A stretch of 64,000 nucleotides of DNA from Sabellastarte sp. h YS-2021. Taxonomy: Eukaryota; Annelida; Polychaeta; Sabellida; Sabellidae. The first letter of the stretch is position 1. Each line of letters opens with the position of its first letter. A program made the translations under genes and the position numbers. Positions 17,870-64,000 of this stretch are shown in pieces. The stretch is taken from positions 29,615,596 through 29,679,595 of the forward strand of contig OZ024935.1 in the NCBI GenBank assembly GCA_964017235.1, read 5' to 3'. Under the pieces are notes generated by a model that had not been told where the DNA came from, made no database searches, and saw nothing but the letters and a program-made list of their open reading frames with translations.

Positions 17870-18550
17870 TTTCAATAATTTCTAAGAAATGTACTCTTGG
17901 CAATCTTCAAACAATTTTGCTGTCCCCAAAAATGGAAAAACACAAATATGCTTCTATCTCCTTAACCGTGCGAGATAGTGATTTTGTTGAAATTTTCCAC
18001 CCACATGGTACCTAAGAAATGTACTAATGGCAATTTTCAAACAATTTTCCTCTCCCCTAAAATGGTGGCCATTTTGAATTTTCAAATTTTTGCCTTAAAT
18101 AGAAAAACACAAATTTGCTTCTATCTCCTTAACCGTGCGAGATAGAGTGATTTCGCTGAAATTTTCGACCCATAGGGTATCTAAGAGTTGTACTAATGGC
18201 AATTTTCAAACAATTTTCCTCTCCCCTAAAATGGTGGCCATTTTGAATTTTCGAATTTTTGCCAAAAATGGAAAAACAGAAATTTCTTTCTATCTCCTTA
18301 ACCGTGCGAGATAGAGCGATTTCATCGAAATTTTCGACCCACAGGGTATCTAAGCAATGTACTTTTGGCAATTTTCAAAAAAATTTCTCTCCCCAGAAAT
18401 GGTGGCCATTTTGAATTTTCAAATTTTTGCCAAAAATGCAAAAACACAAATTTGCTTCTATCTCTTTAACCGTGCGAGATAGAGCGATTTTGTCGAAATT
18501 TTCCACCCACAGGGTATCGAAGCTATCTACTCTTGCCAATTTTGTCCAAG
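17870..18550 (+). repeat. about 168-bp tandem array, four units
   Basis: Units restart at about 17954, 18121, 18290 and 18458 with CTATCTCCTTAACCGTGC, then GAAATTTTC, then GGTATCTAAG, then AATGGTGGCCATTTTGAATT. It is a diverged relative of the 170-bp arrays at 24325-25275 and 35240-35870. The short minus-strand frame through it is incidental. Confidence 0.9.
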
Positions 18551-18859
18551 TTTTAGAGCTAAACTAATGCTTCCCTTTGGGTAGACATCACGCATGCCAA
18601 TGCGTCCTATTTCTAGTTACAATATTATAACAAATTAGCTGATTATTTGTCATTAGTAAAATGATATATATAGTTGAAATATTGATAAACATGAAGATTT
18701 AATTTTTTATTTTACAAATTCTTATTATAATATGATGCACATTTCTAGACCACAGGCTTCCTCTAAGGTATCCAAGTAACCCCATATTGTAAGTTTACCC
18801 AGATACTGCTTTTGTATTTTAACCCTCATAAATGAGATAGTATAACTATGTAAAATGGG
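18551..18859. other. AT-rich spacer
   Basis: No gene or named element seen. It lies between two tandem arrays. Confidence 0.5.
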
Positions 18860-19380
18860 ATGTTTCGAAAATTAAAAGATTTTTTTGTATCCAGAGTATA
18901 ATCCAGATGTTTTCTGAAATTGAATCACTTCTTCCCTTGGTCAAACTTTACCTCCATAAAAATTTCAAAAAGAAATGTTGATTACTTTTGGAGTAATTTG
19001 AACACAAAGGAGAAAGCATTGTAAATTCAGTGAAAATGGAACTTTTGTACATTCCAGATTTTTTTGTATACACAATTGATCTAGATCTTTTCTAAAATAT
19101 AATAAATTCTTCCAATTCAGGCCATATGCATATCAAATTTTAGAAAGATCCATTCGTTGTTGTTTTAGTAATCTCGGCCACAAACCCAAAGCATTGAAAT
19201 TAGAACTGTTGAGTATTCAGGATTTGATGTGTATTGGGGGTTTTGGATCCAGATCTCACCTCAAATTTAAGAACTTCTTCCGTTGGTCAGACCATAGTCA
19301 CATAAAAAATTCATGTTAGCGTATTACATAGACAATATCAAAAAGCGTTCCACTGAAAGTGAAATTAGTCCTGTATCTTG
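18860..19380 (+). repeat. about 165-bp diverged tandem repeat, three units
   Basis: Units share TTTTTTTGTATCCAGAGTAT, CTTCTTCCNTTGGTCA and AGAAAGATCCATTCG-like blocks and restart near 18870, 19050 and 19220. Related single copies lie at 27980-28110 (plus) and 56790-57010 (minus). The same block organisation recurs in many invertebrate dispersed repeats (general knowledge, not searched). Confidence 0.75.
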
Positions 19381-19662
19381 GATTATGGTGAAGTAAACTT
19401 GGAAATACGGTAACATGAAATACAACGTGATGTAGCTATAGCACTATCAGGCAGCAAATCAGAAAAGATAATTATGGCAATGGGAATTGTATCCACTAGA
19501 AAGACAACTCTCCAAAGTTAGTGAGCAGTTGAGTAAGGACCAAAGGCTCAGTGTAATCAAATGTTCCGAGTCCATGATTTGCAATAGGATGGCTTTAGAT
19601 TGTAAACTTGTAGGACCAGTTATAAGCACTTATAAGTTTGGCTGCTCTCATTTGAACATGAA

Positions 19663-19683
19663 GGGGGGGGGGGGGGGGGGGGG
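19663..19683 (+). repeat. G homopolymer, 21 bases
   Basis: An unbroken run of G in AT-rich surroundings. Length is likely unreliable in any assembly. The Gly run in the overlapping short frame is an artefact of it. Confidence 0.95.
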
Positions 19684-20342
19684 CAAGGTCTTATCTTACC
19701 ACATCAGAAGTATCCCAGCTCATGGTTTCCTAGGTTGGTTTCACATCCCAAAAATCTAGTAGCAATAATAAGCAAGTTACAAGGACTTTTAAAGTGTGAA
19801 GTTTTTTCACCATTTTGTTCAGTGTATCTTTGTCTTGAATAAGACAATTGTCAAGTCGTACATTATAACAAACAAGTCTCTTAAATGTAAAATTATTCCT
19901 GCTTGTGAAGCGTTTAATGAATGGGGTCAACAATTGTTTTACCTCACAAATGTCGCTTTGCTTCAGTTTGAATTTTAGCATACTTAGTAACTAAAAACCA
20001 GGGAACCATAAAATGTCTCTTTATCAATCAAACTATTGAAGAGTTTGCAACATCGAAACTCTTGTTGCGCCTGTTTATAGTATACCATCCCTTCCAGTGG
20101 ATCTGTTTACACATCATAAAATTCTTGTCTATGATTTCCCAACACTGTTTTCCTTTTTGTATGATTGTAGAAATTTTTGAGTGAAGCAAATGGCACTGTA
20201 AATTTTGAAGCACATTTTACTGGACACTGGTATTATCCAGGCTTTTTGGTATTACTAATAATCCACACTTAGTCGGAACTTGGACTGTCACATGTGAGGG
20301 AATTATTTGCATCACATTACCCAAATCTGGTTTGTTTTACAG
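19684..20342. other. no feature recognised
   Basis: AT-rich sequence with short frames on both strands and no recognisable similarity. Confidence 0.45.
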
Positions 20343-21585: not shown

Positions 21586-21589
21586 AACT

Positions 21590-23944: not shown

Positions 23945-24324
23945 TTAAGCGTCCCGCAAGGGACGCTTGTTTGTGTATGGGAGAGCTTCCGGCTCCGGCG
24001 GCTCCGCATTTTGTTTTCCTTATAACTCTGTAACCGTTAGGCGGATTCTTTTCAAATTTGGCAGGTTTAGGCAGTAGCCTTGGGGAATTTTTTTGAATAT
24101 GCTGTAGTGACATTTCAACCAATCAGAGAGGTCACATGACCAAAAATGTCTTTTTTCGATGGGGAAGCTTGTCCGGATGATAACTTGAAAGGAATTTTAT
24201 CAATTCACCTGAAACTTGGCAAATACATTCATTCTATTAAAATCTGGAAATCATTAGATTTTGGCATTGATTGGTCAAGAAATGGCCGAGTAATTAATGA
24301 TTAATTAATCATTACAAATTTTCC

Positions 24325-25275
24325 AAATAAGGAAAACACAAAAATGCTTATATCTCGAAAACCGTGCTAGATAGAGCGATTTCGACGAAATTTTTGACCC
24401 ACAGGGTATCTCTGCGGAGTAGTTTTCCCAATTTTCAAAAAATTTTTGTCTCGCCCAAAATGGCGGCCATTTTGAATTTTCGAAATTTTCGCAAAAATTG
24501 CAAAACACAAAAATGCTTATATCTCAAAAACCGTGCTAGATAGAGCAATTTCGACAAAATTTTTGACCTGCAGGATATATCTCTGCGGAGTACTTTTCCC
24601 AATTTTCAAAAAATTTTTGTCTCGCCAAAAATGGCGGCCATTTTGAATTTTCGAAATTTTCGCAAAAATTGCAAAACACAAAAATGCTTATATCTGGAAA
24701 AGCGTGCTAGATAGAGCGATTTCGACGAAATTTTTGACCCGCAGGGTATCTCTGCAGAGTAGTTATCCCAATTTTGAAAAAATTTTTGTCTCGCCAAAAA
24801 TGGCGGCCATTTTGAATTTTCGAATTTTTCGCAAAAATTGCAAAACATAAAAATGCTTATATCTCGAAAACCCTGCTAGATAGAGCGATTTCGACGAAAT
24901 TTTTGACCCACAGGGTATATCTGCAGAGTAGCCATGCCACTTTTCAAAAAAATTTTGTCTCGCCAAAAATGGCGGCCATTTTGAATTTTCGAATTTTTCG
25001 CAAAAATTGCAAAACATAAAAATGCTTATATCTCGAAAACCGTGCTAGATAGAGCGATTTCGACGAAATTTTTGACCCACAGGGTATCTCTGCAGAGTAG
25101 CCATGCCAATTTTCAAAAAAATTTTATCTTGCCAAAAATGGCGGCCATTTTGAATTTTCGAATTTTTGCGCAAAAATTGCAAAACACAAAAATGCTAATA
25201 TTTCGAAAACCGTGCTACATAGAGCGATTTCGACGAAATTTTTTATCTTCAGGGTATCTCTGCAGAGCAGCTATC
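24325..25275 (+). repeat. 170-bp tandem array in copy A, about six units
   Basis: Units restart near 24333, 24501, 24672, 24841, 25010 and 25180 with CACAAAAATGCTTATATCTC, then AAAACCGTGCTAGATAGAGC, then GACGAAATTTTTGACCC, then AAAATGGCGGCCATTTTGAA. Units differ by only a few bases. Short minus-strand frames (such as FENSKWPPFLARQ) run through repeated units and are shadows. Two further diverged units lie at 26050-26310. Confidence 0.95.
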
Positions 25276-25955
25276 CCAAAGAGCTTTCACTTGAAGTTTC
25301 AGACCCATAGCTAATTGCTCACCTACTCAAAAAGAGTAAATGCGAATTACCTCTAAAAGTATTGCAGATAGCCAATTTTCTCAAATAACTCATTCACATA
25401 CTTTTGGGAGAGCTTTCACATGGTGAAGTTTCAGACCCATAACTAATTATTTACCTACTCAAAATGAGTAAATGCTAATTATCTGTAAAAGTATTGCGGA
25501 TACCCAATTTTTATCAAAAACTCATTCATCTACTTGTGGGAGAGCTTTCACATGGTGAAGTTTCAGACCCATAGCTAATTACTCAACTTCTCAAAATGAG
25601 TAAATGCGAATTATCTCTAAAAGTATTGCAGATAGCCAATTTTTCTCAAATAACTCATTCACCTACTTTTGGGAGAGCTTTCACTTGGTGAAGTTTCAGA
25701 CCCATAGCTAATTACTCACCTACTGAAAATGAGTAAATGTGAATTATCTCTAAAAGTATTGCAGATAGCCAATTTTTCTCAAATAACTCATTCACCTACT
25801 TTTGGGAGAGCTTTCACTTGGTGAAGTTTCAGACCCATAGCTAATTACTCACCTACTCAAAATGAGTAAATGTGAATTATCTCTTAATAGTATTGCAGAT
25901 AGCCAATTTTTCTCAAATAACTCATTCACCTACTTTTGGAAGAGCTTTCACACAC
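25276..25955 (+). repeat. 132-bp tandem array in copy A, about five units
   Basis: Units share GGGAGAGCTTTCACNTGGTG, AAGTTTCAGACCCATAGCTA, CACCTACTCAAAATGAGTAA and TTATCTCTAAAAGTATTGCA. Spacing is 131-133 bp. The same unit fills 33940-34915 and 35870-37600. Confidence 0.95.
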
Positions 25956-27120
25956 GAAAATGAAAAATTGTGAATATCTCGGAAAAGCTATTTCTTCTGC
26001 TTTAATGCTCGGTGGGAGATACACACCACGGCAGTGGTCTTGTCAAAAATTTTTGTCTCCCCAAAAATGGTGGCCATTTTGAATTTTCAAAGTTTTTGCA
26101 AAACACAAAAATGCTTATATCTCGAAAACCGTGCTATATGGAGTGAACTCAACAAAATTTTGGACCTGCTGGGTATCTCTGCAGAGTAGCCATGCCAATT
26201 TTCAAAATATTTTTGTCTCGCCAAATATAGCAGACATTTTTAATTTTTTTATTTTTTGCAAAACACAAAAATGCTTATATCTTGAAAACCGTGCTAGATA
26301 GAGCAGACTGCGCTGACTTTGGTTGCCACAACAGTATAAGGCTAGAAACGAAGCATTTTCTTAATACTTTAGCACTCACCTTTATATCCTTTTCGGGACG
26401 CTTTGTTTTTGCTATGCAAAAACATTATCTTTTTTTTTTTGCGAGCGATCCTCTAGTTGCTATTGAATTCAGTTGGGGAAAACATTTTGCAGAAGTTTTC
26501 GGACAAACTGATTACAATTAACTGAGGTGCAGTAGTAATTCAAACTAGATTGCAATTGATTGCAAGCGTTTGTTAACCTGTAAAACAGGTTGGCATTTAA
26601 TGAATGTCTGGTAAGAGTGAAAAGTCAGTGGTGTATGACTGTGCATTGTGAATTATGTCTGCTTAGCTAGAATTTATGTTTGATTGGCATAATAAGCTTC
26701 TTTCTATAATGATGGAGATATGTATTAGTCTCAGTAAACATCCCTACTTGTCAATTGTGTGTGACAATGCTTTGTGAATAATGATTCTGTGGAAATAAAT
26801 CAAGAGAAGTCTATGAAAAATGAAGTCATTCTTTACAGCACTTTCATGCAGTCAAAATACTAGGCCAGAACAGAAATTGAAAAATATAAAGACTTTTGTA
26901 CCCTAACACTCAAAATGTGAATCTGTTTATGCAGATATTTGCATTCAAAACACTAGCCATAGAGGAAATATAAAATAAGACTTCATGTCCTTACATTCAA
27001 AATTTGATTCCGTGTATGCATGTTTAGTAGAGGCATTCCATATCTATAGCATCGGTGTTATACACACGGATCCGGGTACTTGACCATACCATTGGTTTGA
27101 TGTTAATTTCACATTGGTTT

Positions 27121-27375: not shown

Positions 27376-29420
27376 TAAGTGTTGTTCTTGTATTGTCATA
27401 TTTTTCTTTTCTTTGGACAAAGTTTAATTTTGCAGAAATACATCTCATAAAAGCTACACAGAGTTGATCATTTCATTTTTGTCTGAGAGTCTGCATTGCA
27501 CGTTCAATGCTCTGGTTTTGAAAGTAACACAAACAAAAACCAAATTCTGTGCAACGTTAGGCTACAAGCAGAAAATATATTTTACCTGAGGCTGAGATGC
27601 TTTCTTAAAATAAGTTGTGTATTTGTTGTGTGGTTGTATTTTCCAATATTTTGATTCATAAAACTATTTGGGCCAGTGTTAGTTTTAGTTAGTTAGTTAG
27701 TTTTAGGACTAGTTCATGACTGTTGTGATTAATACTTTAAGATTGAATTACAATTTTAATCAATATGGTATTTGTTATTTAAATTATGTATCAACCGATA
27801 ATATTTGACAGTCATCTTTAATGGACAAGCAAGAAACACTAAGAAGTTTTCTTTTAAGAAAAGTAATAATTTTTTGCTGACATCTTATTGAAGTTGTCAG
27901 TACCACTGTTTCCTGTTATATGGTTTTTCTTATGTACATAACTAAAAAGGATTCACAGTACGTATCTCTTCCAGGGCATTTTCCCGAAAATTATGATTTT
28001 TTTGTATCCAGAATAAAATAGGATCTTTCCCAAGATTTCACAAAACAAAACTGACAAAAATTTTCAGAAAGATCCAGTCATTACTTTTGAAGTTATCGTG
28101 AACACAGATCAAAAATGTAAAAATATTTTGTTTGTTTTATATATAAAAACTACCACTCAAATCCCAGTTATTATTTGTATGACAACTGCCAATTAATGCA
28201 CAAGGACTTTATCTGTTTATATGAGGGCTGCATTTGCTCCAAGTATTTGAGCACTGGCAAATTGAAGAGTCTATTGAGGATCAGCGTGTCTTTTACTGGT
28301 TTTAATTGGGTGAAGTTAGATTTTCTGTTTTAAATTATCACTCGTATATCACTTTGCTTAGGTTTTACCATTATAAATGACAAGCAGCTGTTTGTTTCAA
28401 AGCCAGAAAAACTGGTTTGTACATTTGTAAATGGTCCCACTTCTAAATACTGGCCTTGAATCAGTGCATGAAAGTTGCTTTTCAAGATCAAGTGGTTTAC
28501 AATGAAGGAACATAATGGCACTACTTTTTTCCTCTACCTGTACAATGTGTTGAAAGGTATGCCAAATCTAAATTGGCCAATTCATTGCTACATGCCACTA
28601 GTTATCCAAGGTATGCATAGGCATAAAGGATAAAGTGATGGTTACTTTAATATATGATATATTTACATCAGATGTATCCTAGATAGTACCAATATTTGGT
28701 TCAATGAATTGGAAAGTAATTTAAAAGTGTGCTTGATGTGCAGCTTTTATTATCATTCTAATAATTTTTCCCTAACAGAACCCTGTTAATTTACTTTCAT
28801 ATTTCCTTGACAATTTCCTGTAATTATCAAATATGGTGGATCCCATAACGGTAAAGTAAAATTTTCCTAGACAATTTCCTGTAATTATCAAATATGACAT
28901 CTAGACCAAGGTTGATCTTTGCATTCGGGTGGTTATGTAAATACTGAGGCACAGGCCACCTGATTCTCACACATTCTCATAATGCACATGTGAAGGATGG
29001 TCCAGGAGCCTCTGGCCTTTCTCCTGGTTCTTTTTATGTGTAATTATTTCACATTCCAGTCCTGTGCTTCTGGGTTTGCTGGGTTTCCCCATTGTATTTT
29101 TGATGTAGAGTCACTTCACATTCACATTCTGGGCCTGTGCTGCTGCAGTTGCTGCTGGTGCTGTTATTTCCGCTGAGGTGACCAGTCCCTTTCCACTTTC
29201 CATATTGCTTTCCATTTTTCTCCTCTTGTTCTGAGAAGGACCATACATATATTGTCATTTTATCTGCAGTTGAAGATTTCTCCTCTTTCCAGCTCTCTGT
29301 TGTGTTGGGACAGCTTAACTATTCATCTCAATATTCATCAATAATCGCCTGGAAGACCTCTCAACTCATTTTCATCACACTGGAGCGTCTCACCCTAAAG
29401 TTGAATGCCAGACTCCTAAT

Positions 29421-31247: not shown

Positions 31248-31400
31248 ATCCCCCACACCCTTTAAAGGCTGTGTGGGTATTGTTTTCACCCATGAAATCA
31301 TTATATTGGGCAGGCAGGCGGGCAGGTAAACCTTGTCTTGGCTATATCTCCGAAGCCATTAAGTATAAGAAAGTTCTTAATTGGGGATGTAGAATATACA
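31248..31400 (+). repeat. 5'-end-like segment of a third hairpin repeat family
   Basis: A hairpin (TATCCCCCACACCC then GGCTGTGTGGGTA, 31248-31279) is followed by TTTTCACCCATG and a TATATCTCCGAAGCCATTAA motif. The same order occurs at 62808-62930, so the two are copies of one dispersed family. Confidence 0.65.
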
Positions 31401-31870
31401 GATGATTACTTCTTGAGAGAGTATTCATTTAATAGTGTGATAAAGTGGTTGGATAAAGAGAATGAATATTCAGGTGTTGTGGGTTTGCATATAACCTGTG
31501 CAGTGTGCAATTGATGAGCAATGATCTTATTTACATATCTCAGCACTTCAAACTGTGTATTAAATTTTGTCATGTATAAGTTTTAAAAGTGTGTTTAAAT
31601 TTCTTGGGGTTTGTACAACAAGGTTTAAATCAATGCTTGAATGTATATTATGATGGCATAGGTTATCTTATTAACACTTGACGATAGGAGAGGGTTATTG
31701 TAATCTGTCCTGCTGTCTGTAACCTGTAACCTTTTCACTCTTATAACTCAAAAACTATAGCACTGATCAAGCTAAAATTTCATGAACAGATATTTCATTG
31801 GGCGCAGATGGATTTCTCCAAATTTGGTCTAATTTGATTGAAAATTAAAGTCAGGGGAGAGTTTTTCCTA
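31401..31870. other. AT-rich DNA with one isolated copy of the shared motif
   Basis: At 31736-31785 CTTATAACTCAAAAACTATA then GCTAAAATTTCATG matches the core motif described in the findings. Otherwise nothing is recognised. Confidence 0.5.
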
Positions 31871-32319
31871 TTAAGCGTCCCGCAAGGGACGCTTGTTTGT
31901 GTATGGGAGACCTTCAGGCTCCGCCGGCTCCGCATTTTGTTTTCCTTATAACTCTGTAACCGTTAGGCGGATTCTTTTCAAATTTGGCAAGTTTAGGCAG
32001 TAGCCTTGGGGAATTTTTTTGAATATACTGCAGTGACATTTCAACCAATCAGAGAGGTCACATGACCAAAAATGTCTTTTTTCGATGGGGAAGCTTGTCC
32101 GGATGATAACTTGAAAGGAATTTTATCAATTCACCTGAAACTTGGCAAATACATTCATTCTATTAAAATCTGGAAACATTAGATTTTGGCATTGATTGGT
32201 TAAGAAATGGCCGAGTAATTAATGATTAATTGTATCCCCGACGCGAAGCGGGGATACTATGGATTCATCATCGTTGTCGCCCGCGCCCTCGTCCGCGTCC
32301 GCAGAGATTTCTTGTTAGC

Positions 32320-32617
32320 GACCTACAGTCCACATTTCTTTCCGGATTTCTTTCATATTTGGCAGGTGGCTTGATATGGTAGAGGACTCGCCACCCTATC
32401 TTTTTGGTAGGCTTTATGTCTAAATTAGGCCTGTGGTAGACAAAAATGTCTAAAATGTGGAATATTGCTTGTTAGCGACCTACAGTCCACATTTCTTTCC
32501 AGATTTCTTTCATATTTGGCAGGTGGCTTGGTATGCTAGAGGACTCGCCACCCTATATATTTAGTAGGCTTTATGTCTAAATTAAGCCTCTGGTAGACAA
32601 AAATGTCTAAAATGCAT
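32320..32617 (+). repeat. 149-bp direct repeat, two copies
   Basis: Starts TGTTAGCGACCTACAGTCCA at 32321 and 32470, with CATATTTGGCAGGTGGCTTG and GACTCGCCACCCTAT in each. Part of it recurs near 33860 (GGTAGGCTTTATGTCTAAAT). Confidence 0.92.
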
Positions 32618-32639
32618 TAAAAGTCATGAAATCATGCAC

Positions 32640-33745
32640 TAAATCACTTATAACTTGAAAAGTGTTGCATTTAGAGCATTTTGTTAAAATATGTTATTCA
32701 GCTACTTTTTTCATAGCTACAACATGGTGAGTAACTTGGGTGTCTGTCTCAATAGCTAAGTGAGTAATAGCTACTTTTGGGCTTTTCAGTAACTTCCACC
32801 ATGAGTAAAATCACTTGTAACTTGAAAACTATTGCATTTACACAATTTTGTATCAATATGTTATTCAGCTACTTTTGGGTCAGCTATAACATAGTAAAAT
32901 TTCAGACCTGTAGCTCATGGCATAGCTGAGTAATAGTTACTTTTAGGTTATCACTGTTGAGTAAATTACTTATAACTTCAAAAGTATTACATTTAGAGTA
33001 TTTTGTTTCAATATGTTATTCACCTATTTTGGAGTCGGCTATAACATAGTGAAGTTCCAGACCTGTGGCTCATTGCATAGCTGAGTAATAGCTACTTTGA
33101 AGTTCACACTGTTGAGTAAATCAGTTGTAATTGGAAAACTATTGCATTTACAGAAATTTGTGTAAATATGTTATTCAGCTACTTTTGGGTCAGCTATAAC
33201 ATAGTGAAATTACAGACCTGTAGCTCATGGCACAACTGAGCAATAGCTATTTTCAGGTACTGACTGTTGAGTAAATGACTTGTAACTTGAAAAATATTGC
33301 ATTTGGAGTATTTTGTTAATATATGTTGTTCACCTACTTTTGGGTCAGCTATAGCATCGTGAAATTACAGACTTATAGCTCATGGCATAGCTGAGCAATA
33401 GCCATTTTCAGGTTCTCACTATTGAGTAAATCAGTTGTAACTTGAAAACTATTGCATTTACAGTATTTTGCTTAAATATGTTGTTCACCTAATTTTTGGT
33501 CAGCTATAACATAGAAAAAATTCAGACATGTAGCTCATTGCATAGCTGAGTAATAGCTACTTTGAGGTTATCACTGTTGAGTAAATCAGTTATAACGTGA
33601 AAACTATTACATTTACAGTATTTTGTTTAAATATGTTATTCACATAATTTTTGGTCAGCTATAACAGAGTGAAATTGCAGACCGCTATGTCATGGCATAG
33701 CTTACCAATATCTACTTTCAGGTTCTCACTGTTGAGTAAATCATT
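32640..33745 (+). repeat. 155-bp tandem array, about seven units
   Basis: Units share AACTTGAAAACTATTGCATT, ATATGTTATTCACCTACTTT, GGTCAGCTATAACATAGTGA and GACCTGTAGCTCATGGCATA. Spacing is 155 bp for most (167 for the first). Block order matches the 132-bp unit, so both descend from one ancestor. Confidence 0.93.
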
Positions 33746-33939
33746 GTATCCACTGGATAGCCGCAGTGTGTAGAGAGATTTCACCATTACCGCTCTAATG
33801 AAAAAAATATATTATAGCTAGCCTTCTCAAGTTTGCAAGGTATATTAGAGGGTGCACCACAGTATTCTATTGGTAGGCTTTATGTCTAAATTAGGCCTGT
33901 GGCTAAATTACATGCCTACTAAAAATGAGTAATTCTGCA

Positions 33940-34915
33940 TTTTCTCTAAAAAGTATTGCAGATAGCAAATTTTTCTTAAATAACTCATTCACCTACTTTT
34001 GGGAGAGCTTTCACATGCTGAAGTTCCAGACCTGTAGGTAATTACTCACCTACTCAAAATGAGTAAATGCGAATTATCTCTAAAAGTATTGCAGATAGCC
34101 AATTTTTCTCAAATAACTCATTCACATACTTTTGGGGAGAGCTTTCACTTGGTGAAGTTTCAGACCCGTAGGTAATTACTCACCTACTCAAAATGAGTAA
34201 ATGCGAATTATCTCTAAAAGTATTGCAGATAGCCAATTTTTGTCAAATAACTCATTCACCTACTTTTGGGAGAGCTTTCACTTGGTGAAGTTTCAGACCC
34301 GTAGGTAATTACTCACCTATTGAAAATGAGTAAATGCAAATTATCTCTAAAAGTATTGCAGATAGCCAATTTTTGTCAAATAACTCCTTCAGCTACTTTT
34401 GGGAGACCTTTCACTTGAAGTTTCAGACCCGTAGCTAATTATTCACCTACTCAAAATGAGTAAATGCTAATTATCTCTAAAAGTATTGCAGATATCCAAT
34501 TCTTATCAAATAACTGATCTACTTTTGGGAGAGCTTTCACATGCTGAAGTTCCAGACCCGTAGGTAATTACTCACCTACTGAAAATGAGTAAATTCGAAT
34601 TATCTCTAAAAGTATTATAGATAGCCAATTTTTCTCAAATAACTCATTCATCTACTTTTGGGAGAGCTTTCACATGGTGAAGTTCCAGACCCATAGGTAA
34701 TTACTCACCTACTGAAAATGAGTAAATTGGAATTATCTCTAAAAGTATTGTAGATAGCCAATTTTTCTCAAATAACTCATTCGCCTACTTTTGAGAGAGC
34801 TTTCACTTGGTGAAGTTCCAGACCCGTAGCTAATTATTCACCTACTCAAAATGAGTAAATGCGAATTATCTCTAGAAGTATTGCAGATAGCCAGTATTTC
34901 TCAAATAACTCATTA
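33940..34915 (+). repeat. 132-bp tandem array in the nested element, about seven units
   Basis: Same unit as in copies A and B, with minor variants (CCGTAGGTAATTACTCACC instead of CCATAGCTAATTACTCACC). Confidence 0.95.
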
Positions 34916-34918
34916 ATA

Positions 34919-35106
34919 TGAAAACAACTTATAGGAAGTCATGGGCTGCAAATCTTTTCATGTGGTCAGATTTGACCTTGGGCCCCTCCTGCTTATTATT
35001 GGTCCTAGAGGCTTGCAATGTGAAAACGACTTATAGGAAATCATGGGCTGCGAATCTTTTGATGTGGTCAGACTTCACCTTGGGCCCCTGCTACAGGGCC
35101 AAATAA
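34919..35106 (+). repeat. 107-bp direct duplication near the nested element's 3' end
   Basis: CTTATAGGAARTCATGGGCT, then ATGTGGTCAGA, then CCTTGGGCCCCT occur twice. The open frame spanning both copies (TTYRKSWAANL twice) is a consequence of the duplication, not evidence of a protein. Confidence 0.9.
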
Positions 35107-35239
35107 GGGTAGCCAAACTTAAAAGTGCTTTCAGCTTGCTTATTAACGAAAAATGCTGTTTATCTTCTAAACTATGTTACTTGGCCTTTGTCGGTGGATA
35201 CATCCAGCATCTGGCCACAGATGCGTCCTTAGTCTAGTT

Positions 35240-35870
35240 AATCATTATGAATTTTCCAAATAAGGAAAACACAAAAATGCTTATATCTCGAAAACCGTGC
35301 TAGATAGAGCGATTTTGACGAAATTTTTGACCCCCACGGTATCCCTGGAGAGTAGCCATGCCAATTTTCAAAAAAAATTTGTCTCGCCAAAAATGGCGGC
35401 CATTTTGAATTTTCGAATTTTTCGCAAAAATTGCAAAACATAAAAATGCTCAATCTCGAAAACCCTCCTAGATAGAGCGATTTCGACGAAAATTTTGACC
35501 CGCAGGGTATCTCTGCAGAGTAGCCATGCCAATTTTCAAAAAAAATTTGTCTCGCAAAAAATGGCGGCCATTTTGAATTTTCGAATTTTTCTCAAAAATT
35601 GCAAAACATAAAAATGCTTATATCTCGAAAACCGTGCTAGATAGAGCGATTTTGACGAAATTTTTGACCCACAGGGTATCTCTGCAGAGTAGCCATGCCA
35701 ATTTTCAAAAAAAGATTTTCTTGCCAAAAATGGCGGCCATTTTGAATTTTTGAATTTTTGCGCAAAAATTGCAAAACACAAAAAATGCTAATATTTCAAA
35801 AACCGTGCTACATAGAGCGATTTCGACGAAATTTTTGATCTTCAGGGTATCTGCAGAGCAGCTATCCCAA
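35240..35870 (+). repeat. 170-bp tandem array in copy B, about four units
   Basis: Same unit as 24325-25275 (AAAACCGTGCTAGATAGAGC, AAAATGGCGGCCATTTTGAA). It resumes immediately after the nested element. Confidence 0.95.
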
Positions 35871-37600
35871 AGAGCTTTCACTTGGTGAAGTTTCAGACCC
35901 GTAGCTAATTATTCACCTACTCAAAATGAGTAAATGCTAATTATCTCTGAAACTATTGTGGATACCCAATTTTTATCAAATAACTCATTCATCTACTTTT
36001 GGGAGAGCTTTCACATGGTGAAGTTTCAGACCCGTAGATAATTACTCACCTACTCAAAATGAGTAAATGCGAATTATCTCTTAAAAGTATTGCAGATAGC
36101 CAATTTTTCTCAAATAACTCATTCATCTACTTTTGGAAGAGCTTTCACATGGTCAAGTTTCAGACCCATAGCTAATTACTCACCTACTCAAAATGAGTAA
36201 ATGCGAATTACCTCTAAAAGTATTGCAGATAGCCAATTTTTCTCAAATAACTCCTTCACCTACTTTTGGGAGAGCTTTCACTCGGTGAAGTTTCAGACCC
36301 ATAGCTAATTACTCACCTACTCAAAATGAGTAAATGCTAATTATCTCAAAAACTATTGGGGATACCCAATTTTTATCAAATAACTCATTCATGTACTTTT
36401 GGGAGAGCTTTCACATGGTCAAGTTTCAGACCCGTAGATAATTACTCACCTACTCAAAATGACTAAATGCGAATTATCTCTTAAAAGTATTGCAGATAGC
36501 CAATTTTTCTCAAATAACTCATTCACCTACTTTTGGAAGAGCTTTCGCATGGTGAAGTTTCAGACCCATAGGTAATTACTCACCTACTCAAAATGAGTAA
36601 ATGCGAATTATCTCTAAAAGTATTGCAGATAGCCAATTTTTCTCAAATAACTCATTCACCTACTTTTGGGAGAGCTTTCACTCCATGAAGTTTCAGACCC
36701 ATAGCTAATTATTCACTTACTCAAAATAAGTAAAATGCTAATTATCTGTAAAAGTATTGCGGATACCCAATTTTTATCAAATAACTCATTCACTTACTTG
36801 TGGGAGAGCTTTCACATGGTGAAGTTTCAGACCCATAGCTAATTACTCACCTACTCAAAATGAGTAAATGTGAATTACCTCTAAAAGTATTGCAGATAGC
36901 CAATTTTTGTCAAATAACTCCTTCACCTACTTTGGGGAGAGCTTTCACTCGGTGAAGTTTCAGACCCATAGCTAATTACGCACCTACTCAAAATGAGTAA
37001 ATGCTAAATTATCTCAAAAACTATTGCGGATACCCAATTTTTATCAAATAATTCATTCATGTACTTTTGGGAGAGCTTTTACATGGTCAAGTTTCAGACC
37101 CGTAGATAATTACTCACCTACTCAAAATGACTAAATGCGAATTATCTCTTAAAAGTATTGCAGATAGCCAATTTTTCTCAAATAACTCTTTCACCTACTT
37201 TTGGAAGAGCTTTCACATGGTGAAGTTTCAGACCCATAGCTAATTACTCACCTACTCAAAATGAGTAAATGCGAATTATCTCTAAAAGTATTGCAGATAG
37301 CCAATTTTTCTCAAATAACTCATTCACCTACTTTTGGGAGAGCTTTCACTTGAAGTTTCAGACCCATAGCTAATTATTCACCTACTCAAAATGAGTAAAT
37401 GCGAATTATCTCTAAAAGTATTGCGGATACCCAATTTTTATCAAATAACTCATTCATCTACTTTTGGGCGAACTTTCACTTGATGAAGTTCCAGACCCAT
37501 AGGTAATTACTCACCTATTCAAGAGGAGTAAATGTGAATTATCTCTTAATAGTATTGCAGATAGCCAATTTTTCTCAAATAACTCATTCACCTACTTTTG
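35870..37600 (+). repeat. 132-bp tandem array in copy B, about thirteen units
   Basis: Continuous array with 128-134 bp spacing and some higher-order pattern: units with CTAAATTATCTCAAAAACTA and GTACTTTTGGGAGAGC variants recur about every four to five units. Two diverged 170-bp units follow at 37690-37975. Confidence 0.95.
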
Positions 37601-38900
37601 GAAGAGCTTTCACACACGAAAATGATAAATTGTGAATATCTCAGAAAAGCTATTTCTTCTCCTTTAATGTTCGGCGGGAGATACACACCGCGGCAGTGGT
37701 CTTGTCAAAAAATTTTCTCTCCCCAAAAATGGTGGCCATTTTGAATTTTCAAAGTTTTTGCAAAACACAAAAATGCTTATATCTCGAAAACCGTGCTAGA
37801 TGGAGGGAACTCAACAAAATTTTTGACCTGCTGGGTATTTCTGCAGAGTAGCCATGCCAATTTTCAAAATATTTTTGTCTTGCCAAATATAGCGGACATT
37901 TTGAATTTTCGAATTTTTTGCAAAACACAAAAATGCTTATATCTTGAAAACCGTGCTAGATAGAGCAGACTGCACTGACTTTGGTTGCCACAATAGTATA
38001 AGGCTAGAAACGAAGCATTTTCTTAATACTTTAGCACTCACCTTTATATCCTTTTCGGGACGCTTTGTTTTTGCTATGCAAAAACATTATCTTTTTTTTT
38101 GCGAGCGATCCTCTAGTTTTTAATTGGGTATATACTATGAAGCCTGCTTCTCTTGTCCCATATGTGAAAAATCAATATCTTGACTGGATTTTCTCCTCAC
38201 AAACTTTTGTCCAATCAGAAGTGGACTGTCTTGTGATTTAAGCAATGTGTAGTACATCCTAATTACGTCACTTCATTCATTATTTCTTTGTGGGGATATT
38301 TCTCACTACTAGCAGTACTGCTTGGAAGAGATTGCAAAAGAAACACAGGAAGGGCTTTGGCCTGCATTTTGCACCAAAGTATTTTGGTCACTGTCTTCCT
38401 GCACAGTTAAAATTTAAACAAAAATATATGGGCGATAATGAATACTTTATAACACAATTGAGTTGGGTGACATCCAGTCGAGCGTTTCGCTCTCTCCGAG
38501 TGCATCTTGTTTTACTTTTGTTGAGCACAGAATGCAGTACTTTGGTAACATTTAAACCTTTAAAATACAATCATCTTTTAAATGTAAGACAAAAATAATC
38601 CAAATTTGTGCCAATTTCAGGGGAGATTATAGGTCTAAAATAGCCACAAAAAGTGTAAAATATGTTACGCATTTCCAAGAAGGAAATAGAAAGGGGGTCC
38701 CACACTGCCAAATGTCACAAACTATGGCAAATGTCTTGTTTCATGCTCTACATAATTATATAGCTTCATAAAATTATTTCTGAATGTTTGAAATTTTTGG
38801 ACATTGTTCCCCCCAAATTATTGAATATACAGTTTGGGGTTAGTGATATCCATGTTATGTTACTGTCTGCATATAAAGTCATATCTCTTCACCTTTGCAG

Positions 38901-39072: not shown

Positions 39073-39794
39073 TGTAAGTAAACCACTCTGAGGTTTGAAA
39101 CTTAAATTTTTGTTAATTTTCTGCTGATTTATATCTAAAACAAATGACTCTTGCAGTATAAAATGGAAACTCCATCATACGTGATGTAGTAGAAAAGTTG
39201 TCTCTCTCTCTTCAGCCAATGAGGAATATCCATACATACACAGATGCCTTTTAGAGTTATAAATTTTGATAAAAAAAGTATAGAAAGGCCACAAAATACT
39301 TTTTGCCAAGCTATCTTTCATCTTCTATGCTACCTGTAATAGTATCCGTTTCAATTATTGCAGTGTTCTTATAGCATTATAATTTAATACCTTGTTGTTC
39401 CTCTCACATTGCCAGGTACTGGGTTCAATTCACAGGCTGACCTTAAGTGAGAAAGTTGGTCTTTGCTTGCAAGTGCTCGATGAATTTCAGTGCAGAATTT
39501 TGATTGACTAGTATCCCCTCAATCTACTCCTCATGATCTAACCTTTTCAAAGTGATGAGAGTTACACCCAAATCAAGTGATCTATTCACCAAGTTTTACC
39601 TAATTAAGCTGTGTGCAACACAAGGAGATCAGTTTTGTCAGTCCTACTCTATGCTAAGGAGTTATATTTCTAAATATGCTTTGGTATTGCTGACCACTTG
39701 TTTGTAGTCCTTTGGCAGTCATTTAACCATTCATTTCTTCGAATATTTGGTGCATTTTTTATCAGGGTTTCAAGGTCAATGAAAAATTTACTAA

Positions 39795-39822
39795 TTAAGC
39801 ATCCCTTGAAAAGGCGATGCTT
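39795..39822. repeat. hairpin resembling a Helentron-like 5' end
   Basis: TTAAGCATCCC is followed by an inverse GATGCTTA with a partly paired centre. It has the same layout as TTAAGCGTCCC at 23945. No matching 3' end was found. Confidence 0.5.
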
Positions 39823-40389
39823 ATTGGTTTCACGTCCCATTTTCATACAGCATATGCCACCACCACTTTTGCAGTATTTTAAATAAGTTAAATATCTCTC
39901 TTAATATTAGGCCTTTAAAAATGATTTTTGACGGTTATAATCTGTAGGCATCGGAAATATTTTGACAGATTTGCCAAATATGACCTTTAACCTTTATAAA
40001 GTTCATATGAACAAAAACAAATTTTTTCTTGTACTTCCTTTTTATTAGACTGTCTCAGACATCACAATATAGGGATCCATAAAATTTGGCAAGTGCTTTT
40101 TTTGCATCACAATCTAGGAGCCATGCAAATTTCAGATCAATCGAGCCCTAATTGACTGATTGAGAGCCCATTGATTATCAATTAGTGAAAAAAGTGCTGA
40201 AGTTGACCCCTTCGGTTCATATTTTGTATATCTACTCAAATTGAGGACACAACACTGGTTCAATATGTTACTGAAGCACGAAAACTATCTTTATATAGCT
40301 GCAAAACTTAGATTCTCGTGTTTAGGTTACCTTAAAATCACCCAAGTCAGGTACCTTTGCTATGCAGAATGTAGGCAGAAGAGATTTGT

Positions 40390-44495: not shown

Positions 44496-44507
44496 ACATG
44501 AAGAGTT

Positions 44508-47556: not shown

Positions 47557-47558
47557 TA

Positions 47559-51720: not shown

Positions 51721-52641
51721 TTTATCTTTGCACTCATAAGCCATATTGGAGGTTTTTTTACTTGAAGTAGGTTTTGTGCTCTCCAAGTGCCAAGTTGTAC
51801 CAAGTTTCAAAGCCAGATATATGAATTTGAATTCTTTTTAAAGTTTGTTTTGAAAATGTCTGGAGGTCAAGTTCTCTGTTTACACGTCAAGGTCCCAAGT
51901 AGTGTCCTGAATATTTGCATACAGTTTATATAGGAAGCATGTATCTCTGTTTATGGGTAGTTTGGTCCAGTTAGCTTTCTATGGCCATAAATCTTCCTTT
52001 GATCTTACATTTCAAAACTGGGTGGCAGACAAAAGAAGATGAACTATGTTCAGCAGTAGAGCCATCTGTATTTCACACTACAGAATTGTAACTGTAGCAA
52101 TATGTCTTCACTTGAATGATTTGTGGCTTAATTTTAAAAATGGCTTAAAATAATACCTAGAAATTGAATTCCAACTCACATCTATAAACTTACTTTGTGT
52201 CACAAAATAAAGACATCATATTTGGTTTATTTTCTGTGCTGAAATCAGGTAAGTCTGAATTCAATGGAGCCTGTATAAAATTTTCTCCTTAACTGGGTAT
52301 TAAAAGACATCATTACAATTCAACTCCTTATGATCTGCTTGGGATTTTTGGTATTTTAATTGAGAGAATAAAAAATGGTACCTCATAGATCTTTGTAAAT
52401 CAACTTATTAGGGGCTTTCTGTTTATTTAACAATCTATAGTTACTGCAAGAGATATTTGTATGATGACAAATTGTATTTTAAAAGCTGCATATTCTATAT
52501 TTTTGTGTTGTTTATCTAACATTAACAGTTCTAAAGTTGAAAGATGCAATCAGAAAAATTTCTTTAGAAAACTGAGGTGTATTGGATCAGGCTATTGCTC
52601 AGTAATTATAAATATCCCTTAAAGTCTCGTCATGTCCGCAG
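51721..52641. other. AT-rich spacer
   Basis: No gene recognised. A donor-like AAATCAG|GTAAGTC occurs near 52245 without a convincing exon. Confidence 0.4.
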
Positions 52642-53939: not shown

Positions 53940-54245
53940 AAGTTTGTAGGTGTTCACTACCCCTGTGGATGGAATTCACCAAATTTTCAAGATATGTTTA
54001 GCCCATGTGGACCTACAGCTTATTAGGTATTGGGGATTATCTGGAAGAAGCTGCTGCCATCTCAATGCTTTTAAGATTTTGGGGTCTTAACTTTTGTGGG
54101 TGTTCCACAGCCTAAACCCATGGATAGATTTTCACCAAATTTTCAGGATATGTTTGACCCAAGAGAGTCGAAAGCTGATTAGGTTTTGGGGAGTACCTGG
54201 CAATAGCTGTTGCCATGGGAACACTTTGAAGACTTTGCAGTCTTA
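53940..54245 (+). repeat. about 155-bp diverged direct repeat, two units
   Basis: Both units contain TTTTGTGGGTGTTC or TTTGTAGGTGTTC, CCAAATTTTCARGATATGTTT, GCTGATTAGGT or GCTTATTAGGT, TGGGGANTA and GCTGNTGCCAT in the same order. It resembles the spaced-block repeats found elsewhere in the window. Confidence 0.75.
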
Positions 54246-55260: not shown

Positions 55261-55264
55261 AAAC

Positions 55265-56240
55265 CCCTCATCCTGATGCATCACTAGAGGAAGCAAGACA
55301 TTTTTGAGAGGTACCAGCACCATTAATCATAAAGAATCAGTAGACGACACAAGACATTATTGTGAGGTGGCAGCACATCTAATCCTAATGCACCAGTAGA
55401 GGACAGAAGACAGTCTAGAGAGGTGCCAGCACTGTACAGACATTGTTGTGAGGTGACAACACTGTTCATTCTGAAGCACCAGTAGAAGACAGAAGACATT
55501 GTTGTGAGGTGACAACACCGTTGATTCTGAAGCACCAGTAGAAGACACAAGATATTGTTGTGAAGTGGCAACACCGTTCATTCTGAAGCACCAGTAGAAG
55601 ACACAAGATATTGTTGTGAGGTGACAACACCGTTCATTCTGAAGCACCAGTAGAAGACACAAGATATTGTTGTGAGGTGGCAACACTGTTCATTCTGAAG
55701 CACCAGTAGAAGACACAAGATATTGTTGTGAGGTGGCAACACCGTTCATTCTGAAGCACCAGTAGAAGACACAAGATATTGTTGTGAGGAGGCAACACTG
55801 TTCATTCTGAAGCACCAGTAGAAGACACAAGACATTGTTGTGAGGTGGCAACACCGTTCATTCTGAAGCACCAGTAGAAGACACAAGACATTGTTGTGAG
55901 GTGGCAACACCGTTCATTCTGAAGCACCAGTAGAAGACACAAGATATTGTTGTGAGGAGGCAACACTGTTCATTCTGAAGCACCAGTAGAAGACACAAGA
56001 CATTGTTGTGAGGAGGCAACACCGTTCATTCTGAAGCACCAGTAGAGGACACAAGATATTGTTGTGAGGTGGCAACACTGTTCATTCTGAAGCACCAGTA
56101 GAAGACACAAGACATTGTTGTGAGGTGGCAACACTGTTCATTCTGAAGCACCAGTAGAAGACACAAGACATTGTTGTGAGGTGGCAGCACTCCTCATTCT
56201 GAAGCATCGGTAGAGACAAGACATTGTGGAATGGCATGGT
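55265..56240 (+). repeat. 56-bp minisatellite, about 14 good units plus degenerate edges
   Basis: Unit: GTTCATTCTGAAGCACCAGT then AGAAGACACAAGAYATTGTT then GTGAGGTGGCAACACC. Regular spacing of 56 bp from about 55463 to 56194; units before and after are degenerate (TGATGCATCACTAGAGGAAG and similar). A single related piece, GATGAGGTGGCAGCACTG, lies near 59036. Minus-strand open frames here are by-products of the repeat. Confidence 0.97.
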
Positions 56241-56789: not shown

Positions 56790-57010
56790 ATGGTTTTGAG
56801 TGCGTTTGTCTCTGTGCATGATTGCTCCAAAGCTAATTAATGCATCTTTATGAATTTTTTTTGTGGGTGGGACCTAACCAAAGTAAAAAGTAATTAGATT
56901 TTGGGAAAGATCCAGATCATACTCTGGATACAAAAACTCCTGAATTTTCAACAGTTCCATTTTCAATGATTCTTGATTTGTGGTTTAGGTTTAATTACAA
57001 TATGAAGATA
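56790..57010 (-). repeat. single copy of the 165-bp repeat family, inverse orientation
   Basis: On minus it reads TTTTTGTATCCAGAGTATGA then GATCTTTCCCAAAATCTAAT, matching blocks at 18860-19380 and 27980-28110. GCACAGACCTCTGCCAAGGT follows on its upstream side at 57018-57037. Confidence 0.7.
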
Positions 57011-57655: not shown

Positions 57656-57714
57656 AGTTTCAACTTTGTTCAGGCTTTTAAGCAGTGACTGTGGAACACT
57701 TTGTACATAATATC

Positions 57715-61200: not shown

Positions 61201-62439
61201 TAGAATTCATCTAGGCAGTTTGCTAATATCCAGTATTTTTTTTTAAATTTTCCTTTTAACTTTAAATTTCTCCCACCATTCATTTTTTGTTGTTATTGCC
61301 CAAAATTGTCCTTTGAATAGATACAACTATTTTGCCTAATGTTTGAATTGTTACTTTAATTATTTTTGGACAACATAAAGGTAAAAAATACAGTGCTGTT
61401 AAAAGTTTTATCTCTTAATTTATATTATATTTTCTCATTTTATATTATTTTTGTTCTTGCTTTAGGTTTTTGCTGCATATGTTGGTTTTTTTCAGCCAGT
61501 TTGAATGAAGATTTCTTGTGTGACATTTACTAACAATTATGGCTATCATGTTAACATTGAAAGTGTAGATTCTGCTCACTTGGGATATAATCTTGTAAAA
61601 TTATTTGTACTCCTTTTTTGACACATGTAATTGCATTTAAATTATCACAGAACATATTTTGTGATTTAAAATGGATTCTTTCCTCTACTTAATTTGCCAC
61701 ACAGAGTAAACTCTTATGTAAATTTATTGCAAGCTATCATTCATTCTGTAATTATTATAATGGAATTGTATTCTTTTATATACAATTTGATTGCTTCTAC
61801 ATGTGTATTTAATATTTTTAACCTTTTCGGAATTTATGGAATAAAGGTATATTAAATTGTACCTGGTTAAACTAAAGTCCTCCATTTTTGCTGAAGTATT
61901 GTCTTGTCTGTGATGTCTTGAATATTAAAATGTTATATATTTGTTTTCTGCATTATTTTGAGAGGAAAGACCAATGGATGTTGAATACAGCAACTGGTCA
62001 GATACACATCCAGCTATTTGAAAGAAAAAATATTTGAATAGTAAGTAAAACTCTATATGATTAATCTTTGGTGTCACTGAAACTTTGAAACACTGCCTGA
62101 AGTTTTACCCTTTAATTGTAAGTTCAAAGTTTTTCCCCTTTAAAGCTTGAAATGGAAATTTATATATACTAATATGCGACAACCTCTTGAATGGTCTGAA
62201 CCATGGGAAAATAGTAAATTTTCACCAGTCTTATCAAGTTTCCATAGTTCTTCAGTTTCAGTTAATAAGCTATATGGTTCTTGCAGTAGGATAACATCTA
62301 TTTTGATATCATTAACCCGTTTTTGCTTAATTTTTCTGTCTCAAGCCTCCTATATTTAATGAAAGTGTGCTAAATTTCAAAATTAAATATACATTGCATT
62401 CAGTTATTTGACAAGTATTAACATATCACAGAACAATTT
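61201..62439. other. AT-rich spacer
   Basis: No gene recognised. The plus-strand frame 62147-62359 has no known domain. Confidence 0.45.
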
Positions 62440-62515
62440 TTTCCCTGTGGGTCCAGGGAAGTAGAATAGGACCAGCGTGTCTTACAGCATGTCGTAAGAG
62501 GCGACTAAATAGAGG
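62440..62515 (+). repeat. short SINE-like fragment
   Basis: CAGCGTGTCTTACAGCATGT then CGTAAGAGGCGACTAAAT. I recall this block as common in dispersed repeats of molluscs and some other invertebrates; it is listed on that basis and was not searched. Confidence 0.45.
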
Positions 62516-62807
62516 TGTGAATATTGTAGTACAATACGAACTTTGACTGGATTTTATTGATGCTTTATTTTATTTTACTCGTTTTGAGAATTGCATTCTA
62601 TTTATGGTTTGTACCTGTTTTATTGTTTCTGTCCCATTTGTTGTATATTCTTGTCAATTTTAATCTGTATATCTAGTGACGAGTTTTTTTATATTTGATC
62701 ATATTATACATATTGTTTAGTTAAAGTATTTCTAGTCTGTATTTATCCTTTCTCTAGTTTTTTTATGTCCATGTGTTTTATCCAAATATTGTTTGCTTAA
62801 TGCCTTT

Positions 62808-63100
62808 TACCCCATAGCCCTTAAGGGCTGTCAGGGTATTTTTTTCACCCATGGTGTCCGGATGGGCGGGTGGCGGGAAAAGTTTGTCTGGCCTGTATCT
62901 CAGAAACCGTTAAGTGTAGGAAGTTGATACTTGGTAGGGACATTGGTTAGGGGAAGTTGATATTTGGTAGGTTGGGGGTTATAGGTGTGCAACGTCATGG
63001 TGTGACCTGGATTTCACCTTTGATCTTGCATATCTGATGCTATTTTATCTCCCTACGGGGATATCTGATACTATTTTATATCTCTTATATCTATCTTATA
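62808..63100 (+). repeat. 5'-end-like segment of the hairpin family also at 31248
   Basis: A hairpin with a perfect 14-bp inner palindrome AGCCCTTAAGGGCT and outer TACCC/GGGTA arms (62808-62838) is followed by TTTTCACCCATGGTGTCC and CTGTATCTCAGAAACCGTTA, then GATACTTGGTAGG. The shared order with 31248-31400 marks one dispersed family. A second small hairpin, TATCTCC-CTAC-GGGGATA, lies near 63048. Confidence 0.65.
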
Positions 63101-64000
63101 TCTTTTTTATTTGAATCTTGGTTGTTGCACCTTTGGGTATCTTTTGATGTAGATTAAGCACTGTTAAAGTCATATTAGAATTTATTAAGGGTTTTACTTT
63201 TGCAACTTCCCATTGTAACAGATGGTATTTCATCAAGTGACCCACAGGCTTTGCCCCAACACCACACATAAGCATGTATTGCCACATTTGGTTGTATGGG
63301 TAATATTCAAAACATTCAAACCATAATTCGACCATTCAAAACAAAGATTAAAATGATAAAGGACTTAAATGTTCACACAAATGTATGAGGTCACTTTAGT
63401 ATGGTTGAACAATATCGAAAACATGCAAATCATAATTCAACTGTGCGAATTGTGCATGTGTAATTGTCTTACAGCTTCTAGACAAACAGACTGGCAGGAT
63501 CTTAATCTTTTCAACCCAATAGCATTTCTGTTGGTTGTGGTATGACGGATTGAGGCTAATTTCGAACCCTGTCTTGAATTGACCTATAATATATTGTCCA
63601 GGCATATCTCGGCAACTGTAAGGATATGGATTGCTGCAACTGATTATGAAATGTACTTTTACATAATTGTGATATTTCCATTGACACCTATTCTCCAGTT
63701 AATATATTGTACAGCTCCGTTATCTTTAGTTTACTGAATTGTCTTGTTTTAATACTTAATCTTTACATGCAGTTTCTTCTCTTAGATGTTATTTTCTCTA
63801 CTTAAACATTATTTGGTCACTGACACTGCTCTGAAAGAATCCCATTCTGTGTACTGTTTCACTACTTATATATCTTATCTTGTTGAAAACTATTTCCCCA
63901 GGCTGTGGGGTACAGGCATCTCTGTTTTTCGTCAGATGTTTTTTTATATATTTGTTCATGCAGTACATATTGTTTAGTTAATGTATTTATTCATTTTAAT
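63101..64000. other. no gene recognised to the window edge
   Basis: AT-rich DNA. GGCATATCTCGGCAACTGTA at 63601 is a weak copy of the shared motif. TTTCCCCAGGCTGTGGGGTA at 63893-63912 repeats the segment near 54600. Confidence 0.45.

Follow-up and report, generated by a model that had tools for sequence, protein, structure and literature searches.

Helentrons and the non-autonomous HINEs, among them DINE-1 of Drosophila, are described with a 5' subterminal inverted repeat, a short inverted repeat, a microsatellite and central repeats, as in the elements considered here, and with a Rep-coding partner and a T-rich target, to which the Rep element described below and the T run in its flanks may correspond; the passages on DINE-1 report a core sequence that is conserved within Drosophila and absent from mite HINEs, and name no box common to unlike families (Thomas et al. 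2014, PMC4067079). In the Pacific oyster, the left flank of Cg_HINE likewise holds a subterminal inverted repeat (subTIR), an inverted repeat and a microsatellite, followed by arrays of mostly 140-180 bp; unlike arrays lie within like ends, and two short segments are common to otherwise unlike clusters (CL1/2/10/13 and CL4), whereas no motif across all clusters is reported in the sections on these arrays, which leave open whether satellite-like arrays were taken up as filler or arise by growth within the element (PMC7492417). Conserved end pieces of oyster Helitrons have been named boxes 1-5, of which Box 3 (156 bp) lies between microsatellite and central repeats, as does the box described below, but is, as presented there, common to two related elements only (PMC8268682). 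In lepidopteran Hel-2, a (CTGT)n microsatellite directly follows the 5' subTIR, although its ends are of Helitron type and the account of its structure describes no box (PMC4344730). The hairpin or subTIR, the microsatellite and the central repeats of HINEs are in this sense already known (PMC4067079, PMC7492417, PMC4344730). Here we consider a 64,000-nucleotide stretch of the polychaete Sabellastarte sp. h YS-2021 (contig OZ024935.1, positions 29,615,596 to 29,679,595), hereafter the window, in which seemingly unlike tandem repeats share one short motif. We regard this motif as probably a conserved box in the 5'-subterminal region of rolling-circle transposons of the Helentron superfamily (Helentrons and non-autonomous HINEs), a linear and probably protein-bound cis site.

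Searches of open-licence papers, without figures or supplements, turned up no account of a single box common to unlike Helentron families, and those with the motif strings returned nothing relevant; because coverage was limited to such text, the finding may be partly known to specialists. To our knowledge, little is known of the cis requirements of Helentrons.

The core of the box is 38 bp long and consists of AACTC-nnn-AAC, 19 variable bp, and AAAyTTGG, the last often preceded by TAT or GAT. One genome of 1.79 Gb was studied, from which numbered loci (L013, L024, L146 and so on) were fetched, and about 297 kb (296,742 bases) was read in total. Searched genome-wide with the gap left free at 14-24, the pattern AACTCNNNAACN{14,24}AAATTTGG (AACTCNNNAAC...AAATTTGG) matched 11,454 times and its reversed form 28 times, and AACTCNAAAACN{14,24}AAACTTGG gave 7,799 against 6, counts that are dominated by a few high-copy families, although the lists still hold several unlike middles of equal length. 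Eleven gap lengths were permitted, and among about 100 matches listed for the first pattern, from one contig, the gap was 19 (38 bp) in all but one; among those listed for the second, 8 places measured 37 or 39 bp and the others 38 bp. When eight otherwise unlike pieces were aligned on the box, pairwise identity was 0.70 in columns 0-9 and 0.61 in columns 30-39, stood at 0.37-0.43 for some 20 bp upstream, and was 0.24-0.31 at more than 20 bp upstream or at least 50 bp downstream; the block identities are partly by construction, because the pieces were picked as motif carriers, which does not apply to the flanks and the gap. Two length classes can be told by eye, 38 bp in the leaders and the 146-, 165-, 168- and 187-bp families, and 43-44 bp in the 133-, 155- and 169-bp arrays. 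A ribozyme or other RNA structure was considered and rejected, as Rfam and alignment folding gave nothing useful: folding of 11 aligned rows predicts zero pairs, one Rfam scan gave a single sub-threshold match (24421-24514), and the sole family match in the window is a histone stem-loop at 6084, so that the box matches no known structured RNA or ribozyme.

That one motif of about 45 bp underlies many repeat families had been proposed in an initial annotation of this DNA, and most of the list given there stands. In a leave-one-out test, in which the tested family was dropped from a pooled 10-row profile and its score compared with 400 dinucleotide shuffles, 11 of the 13 listed places or families were equalled by no more than 2 shuffles: none for the 155- and 169-bp units, the leader of copies A and B, and the places at 31350, 31740, 62890 and 28060; one for the 133-bp unit and for 63605; and two for 18960 and 19140, the latter in its second half only (18960, 19140 and 28060 belong to the 165-bp family). 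The unit of the nested element was borderline (7/400, second half only), and 51600 gave no score. The 146-bp unit, the 168-bp unit, L147 and L013 also stayed at or below 2/400, and a second leader box, absent from the earlier list and 158 bp past the first, reached 0/400. Two of three stretches of the array at 17926 gave 1/400, the third 6/400 at the wrong place and strand, and a 152-bp variant in L014 gave 6/400 with its match at the wrong place; two added candidate places failed (25960, 26/400; 35150, 15/400). Among 13 tandem families of 90-260 bp in 29 stretches, four pass (F0, which includes the 133- and 155-bp units, F1, F2 and F6), one is borderline, and six are without any match. The two others, the 147-bp F3 and the 157-bp F7, look motif-like by eye and were rejected after failing the profile test. 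The 147-bp tandem family (TGCTTATAACTCGCTTATTATTGG...), present in L014, L016, L017, L020 and L146, resembles the first motif block only.

A 12-piece profile from the window had 147 matches at E <=20 in the window and 15 random 10-kb stretches, against 5 on reversed sequence; in the random stretches, none of which contributed to that profile, 54 matches of at least 8 bits fell in 7 of the 15, against 1 reversed, most of them members of window families and hence not 54 independent events. A pooled 15-row profile matched the 296,742 bases 266 times at 7 bits or more, against 2 reversed and 0 to 4 for 20 column-permuted profiles; this profile includes rows of the counted families, and the independent tests are the leave-one-out test and the single-family cross-tests given below. 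Chance likeness of AT-rich text would be in keeping with weak single-family profiles and with weak pairwise alignments (sixteen pieces yielded 120 pairs, of which 10 exceeded z 3, 4 being obvious relatives, while the opposite strand had 4 such pairs in 120; the mean z values were 1.32 and 0.14, respectively), but the reversed, shuffled and column-permuted controls make it scarcely credible. In prokaryotic genome contigs and viral contigs the 38-bp patterns had zero matches. A loose pattern matched at least 120 viral stretches, with a gap of 19 in 11 of 120 and a peak at gap 18 (33), and the profile gave 2 weak matches against 3 reversed in 1,025,086 bases of viral stretches. The search of viral and prokaryotic contigs for Helentrons of other animals yielded a single locus, L149, in which no box was found. 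Absence from these collections indicates only that the box is no widespread chance pattern.

The second feature of the box is its place. It lies some 77-110 bp inside Helentron/HINE-type 5' ends. A hairpin precedes it, as does, in most copies, a short microsatellite of GTCT, GTCC or CCG type. The clustering at Helentron ends for which the initial annotation proposed a test is thus largely borne out. Copies A and B in the window have the order hairpin, GC stretch, box, with the box 77 bp from the start of the hairpin, and the same order recurs at 31350 (94 bp), at 62890 (81 bp) and, with a weak box, in the nested element at 32232. In copies A and B, the only two checked for it, GGGACGCTT near the right end (26395, 38057) is the inverse complement of AAGCGTCCC at the left end. 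Hairpins were scored at 19 places against a background of 600 random places, and eight places of four unlike kinds (copies A and B, the nested element, L146, L147, L024, L151 and L157) fell in the top 1.5% of random scores. That the hairpin marks the end of the element is established for the Rep element described below and for copies A and B, and is assumed for the other copies. Ten extra loci, chosen from the pattern lists for unlike middle sequence and therefore bearing the box by construction, show by eye three 5' end types upstream (four alpha, five beta and one gamma), with a microsatellite that is clear in four (L151, L154, L155 and L157), a remnant in five and lacking in L150. Genome-wide, a (GTCT) microsatellite followed by the box gave 5,805 matches, a count that includes several per long microsatellite and is mostly of one strand, whereas the box followed by the microsatellite gave 12 and the reversed pattern 1; among the matches listed, microsatellite and box are separated by linkers of at least three kinds. 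By eye, L153 (G000:C1:9884900-9886095) has a hairpin like that of copies A and B in front of a box like that of L147, and may thus point to a possible exchange of ends between Helentron lineages.

The box is also found in the 5' arrays of a Rep-coding element, a kind of element in which the initial annotation had proposed to look for it. A Helitron_like_N search of the animal's own genome gave 24 matches, and upstream DNA was taken for five loci. Three of these (L024, L025 and L148) are copies of one Rep element, 98.5-98.7% alike across 6.3 kb, and its 5' end could be located because the likeness of the three copies starts in a T run, in which each of the three unlike 5' flanks terminates. From this end inward there follow a hairpin, (GTCC/GTCT)n and, about 110 bp in, the first box, which recurs in units of some 164-188 bp, on the strand of Rep, whose domain is recognised at E 1.6e-25. 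At L146, a hairpin and a GC stretch are accompanied by a 146-bp box array, which lies some 4 kb upstream of Rep. The end of the Rep element differs from that of copies A and B, and no Rep-coding partner with ends like theirs was found among the loci studied. One box, in one place and orientation, occurs in Rep-coding and non-coding elements with unlike ends. A protein search with Rep gave 314 relatives, and several bivalves and other invertebrates are among the 120 listed, the best match being from Mercenaria. Two Helentron-type Rep/helicase proteins, P0003 and P0043, are filed under two metagenome-assembled genomes (MAGs), one assigned to Pseudomonadota and one to a Lucinoma symbiont; their contigs measure 4.9 and 3.5 kb, respectively, and both are probably host contamination. 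A reverse-strand open frame over the box array of L024 (1001-1678, minus strand) has 310 predicted-protein matches, of which 120 were listed and 16 read, and which suggest that such arrays are often annotated as protein; it was not used as cross-species evidence. A 126-bp repeat without the box lies within the Rep-coding frame (L024 6345-7025 in frame 5532-9998; L148 5919-6950).

The position of these arrays, upstream of the coding region and on the coding strand, would suit a site at which a host transcription factor binds as at a promoter or enhancer, the Rep gene being driven by tandem copies of that site, and so would the linear nature of the box. The 5' monomers of mouse L1 are tandem copies that drive transcription. 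Against such a role stand the non-coding HINEs: they can be moved in trans without being transcribed themselves, yet keep the box at the same place, and this argues for a cis role in movement rather than in expression only. We hold the promoter to be an unlikely explanation in itself; it is possible that one host site serves promoter and transposition tasks both.

Within the arrays, Tandem Repeats Finder (TRF) recovers periods of 169, 157, 155 and 133 bp in the window, the 157 bp being that of the nested element, for which 149 bp had been given. Consecutive boxes are mostly 130-189 bp apart, and 201 of 226 gaps are below 400 bp, as expected from arrays. Neighbouring boxes with unlike spacers can hold the period, as between the first and second leader box (158 bp), between leader and 169-bp array (170), and in L014 (175), L151 (149) and L156 (160), which suggests that box and spacer form the module and that spacers are replaced or have diverged; 50 junctions were listed, many of them one junction repeated in copies of one element. 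Some unlike units thus join in near-constant phase, and this would fit a motif at which satellite arrays recombine or rearrange. Motifs resembling the CENP-B box are kept in this manner in otherwise unlike Meloidogyne satellites, and conserved motifs are reported there at junctions of unlike monomers (PMC3694981). Those motifs differ from the box in that they are 17 bp long, of other sequence and, as described there, without a tie to Helentron ends (PMC3694981). A recombination motif would leave the 5'-proximal place of single boxes unexplained, and we consider it improbable. The CENP-B box itself was rejected, the core pattern TTCGNNNNANNCGGG having 0 matches in the window on both strands.

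Several observations weigh against reading the box as a protein-bound site of Helentron 5' ends. Profiles built on one family each (n=8), which according to the initial annotation should score the other families, did so in 21 of 71 cross-tests (<=10/200 shuffles) where about 3.6 were expected by chance, but 50 of 71 failed, so that pair by pair the expectation mostly was not borne out, clear as the excess over chance is; the 169-bp profile alone, for instance, detects the 146-bp unit and the first leader box and misses the other seven. The motif is too short and too degenerate for one family to define, and because single-family profiles often miss each other, the pooled profiles and the fixed gap carry the case. 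The spacer of 24-25 in the 133-, 155- and 169-bp boxes is 5-6 bp longer, half a helical turn, which misfits a rigid two-block binder. Junctions of unlike spacers other than those above span 205-399 bp, some of them between separate elements. Hairpins are weak in L153, L154, L155, L156 and L159 (16-30% of random places) and unscored at s31740, L150, L152 and L158; the places concerned are the beta and gamma copies together with L150 and L156 of the alpha type. The beta hairpin is a weak fifth kind. The array of L146 may belong to a separate HINE. In L147, which shares the Rep part, the 2.3 kb examined upstream of that part showed no box, and its sole strong box is on the opposite side of Rep, within another element type. 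Within families, finally, the box is only average in the 133-bp units (69/133 windows higher) and the 155-bp units (52/155; 4 units), and between these two sets identity is lower in the box (0.61) than outside (0.70).

The last point bears on inheritance as an explanation, in which an old ancestral Helentron 5' module was simply passed on and the box is a still-recognisable remnant without present function. Elsewhere the box is clearly better conserved only in the 169b units (2/169 windows higher) and modestly so in 169a (18/170), 146 (17/146) and 168 (19/168), while 169a and 169b share an identity of 0.85 within the box and of 0.78 beyond it; set 155L016 is left out of this comparison, its units belonging to the 147-bp family. 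The box is thus not clearly under stronger constraint than the rest of its unit, carriers with a recognisable end look Helentron-type, and the shared text extends into the 20 bp upstream, each of which simple descent would produce. The within-family test has low power, because copies decay freely after insertion; still, it gave constraint no support. On the other side, the flanks are at background while two blocks keep both sequence and a fixed gap, which favours constraint over plain descent, since neutral decay would not end so sharply or spare identical columns in every family. We therefore think inheritance without function rather unlikely. The choice between one old ancestor and a shared functional site, posed at the outset, thus tilts towards the latter on gap and flanks, and the within-family conservation and the 50 failed cross-tests leave the two unseparated.

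If the box is a protein-bound site, it would be read as linear DNA by a protein common to many Helentron lineages, which might belong to the transposition complex or be a host factor that acts at the 5' end. Rolling-circle copying may then slip or re-initiate by units of one box plus a spacer of about 110 bp; this would yield arrays of 133-187 bp, the spacers of which later diverge past recognition while the box stays. That the box is present both in the 5' end and in the array units favours growth of arrays from the element's own text. Plasmid origins have iterons, tandem sites of about 20 bp beside the end or origin that are known to bind the Rep protein that uses them. The arrays might act somewhat like iterons, in that a binding site would be multiplied next to an end that resembles an origin; both are tandem sites near an end, whereas Rep is known to bind iterons and is a candidate binder of the box. 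More tentatively, and on balance doubtfully, one 38-bp box may serve animal Helentrons in general as a cis site on which many lineages act in trans despite their unlike ends, and which sets where rolling-circle transposition begins or is licensed; copying that slips between boxes would seed the satellite-like arrays of this genome, and boxes and hairpin ends would be exchanged between lineages. A very similar 38-bp string with equal spacing may be common in insect genomes. The box, which may serve as a recognition site and may have seeded the repeat arrays, is a concrete site to mutate, and also a handle for finding Helentrons otherwise too diverged to recognise.

Table. Copies A and B, boxes, hairpins and arrays in the window (bits, profile score; fractions of 400, shuffles reaching the real score; random places, background of the hairpin score).
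Feature	Position	Strand	Basis or remark
Second-subfamily 169-bp array, four boxes	17926..18543	+	TRF, profile
165-bp family box	18955..18997	-	2/400; 17.5 bits
165-bp family half box	19128..19153	-	2/400; 7.3 bits
Copy A, whole: hairpin end, leader, arrays, right end GCGAGCGATCCTCTAG	23945..26456	+	Limits by eye and A/B comparison; both ends recur in copy B
Copy A 5' terminal hairpin	23945..23968	+	Perfect 9-bp stem beginning 77 bp upstream of box; 1.5% of 600 random places score so
Copy A 5'-proximal box	24019..24065 (38-bp core 24024-24061)	+	15.1 bits left out, 0/400; 27.7 bits full profile
Copy A second leader box	24178..24221	+	158 bp past first, flanks unlike; 12.1 bits left out, 0/400
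Copy A 169-bp array, 44-bp box per unit	24333..25279	+	Matches start at 24347, 24516, 24687, 24856, 25025, 25196
Copy A 133-bp array	25280..25952	+	Five box matches >=5 bits
165-bp family box	28055..28099	-	0/400; 22.5 bits
146-bp family single box, first half matched	31341..31363	+	0/400; hairpin 94 bp upstream (5.2% of random places); GGCAGGCAGGCGGGCA stretch before box
Beta-family single box	31740..31783	+	0/400; hairpin unscored; 187-bp unit and (TCTG)n microsatellite of the family in L155
Copy B, ends as in copy A, holds nested element	31871..38116	+	Comparison with copy A
Copy B 5'-proximal box	31945..31990	+	26.9 bits
Copy B second box	32104-32147	+	20.6 bits
Nested element hairpin	32232..32257	+	0/600 random places score as high; GC-rich stretch, then 157-bp unit
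Nested element 157-bp unit, two copies	32307..32614	+	Second motif half alone recognisable; 7/400
155-bp array, 44-bp box class	32802..33748	+	Five matches >=5 bits; some units without match
133-bp array	33915..34914	+	TRF, profile
169-bp array	35266..35870	+	TRF, profile
133-bp array, ~13 units	35871..37614	+	TRF, profile
146-bp family single box	62893..62938	+	Leave-one-out pass; hairpin ~81 bp upstream, score reached by 11.8% of random places
Degenerate single box	63606..63643	+	Weak: 4.5 bits, 1/400; <5 bits with 15-row profile, not among matches >=5 bits

Weak box matches of 5.0 to 8.1 bits, absent from the earlier list, lie at 39241-40228, 51797-51839, 54113-54145 and 56820-56859. A 56-bp minisatellite at 55280-56227, with about 14 units in its main part, is without a box match of 5 bits. 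Outside the repeats, a DDE_Tnp_4 transposase (3754-5058, plus strand; E 2.4e-32) stands beside a MADF/Myb-like protein (6157-7371, minus strand; E 2e-11), a pair that we take to resemble PIF/Harbinger elements. The histone 3' untranslated region stem-loop (6084-6129, minus strand) exceeds the Rfam gathering score and is found directly past the end of the Myb-like frame. Broken frames at 9371-13050 on the plus strand, one with a weak tyrosine-recombinase match (PF00589, below cut-off), are perhaps a DIRS-like retroelement.

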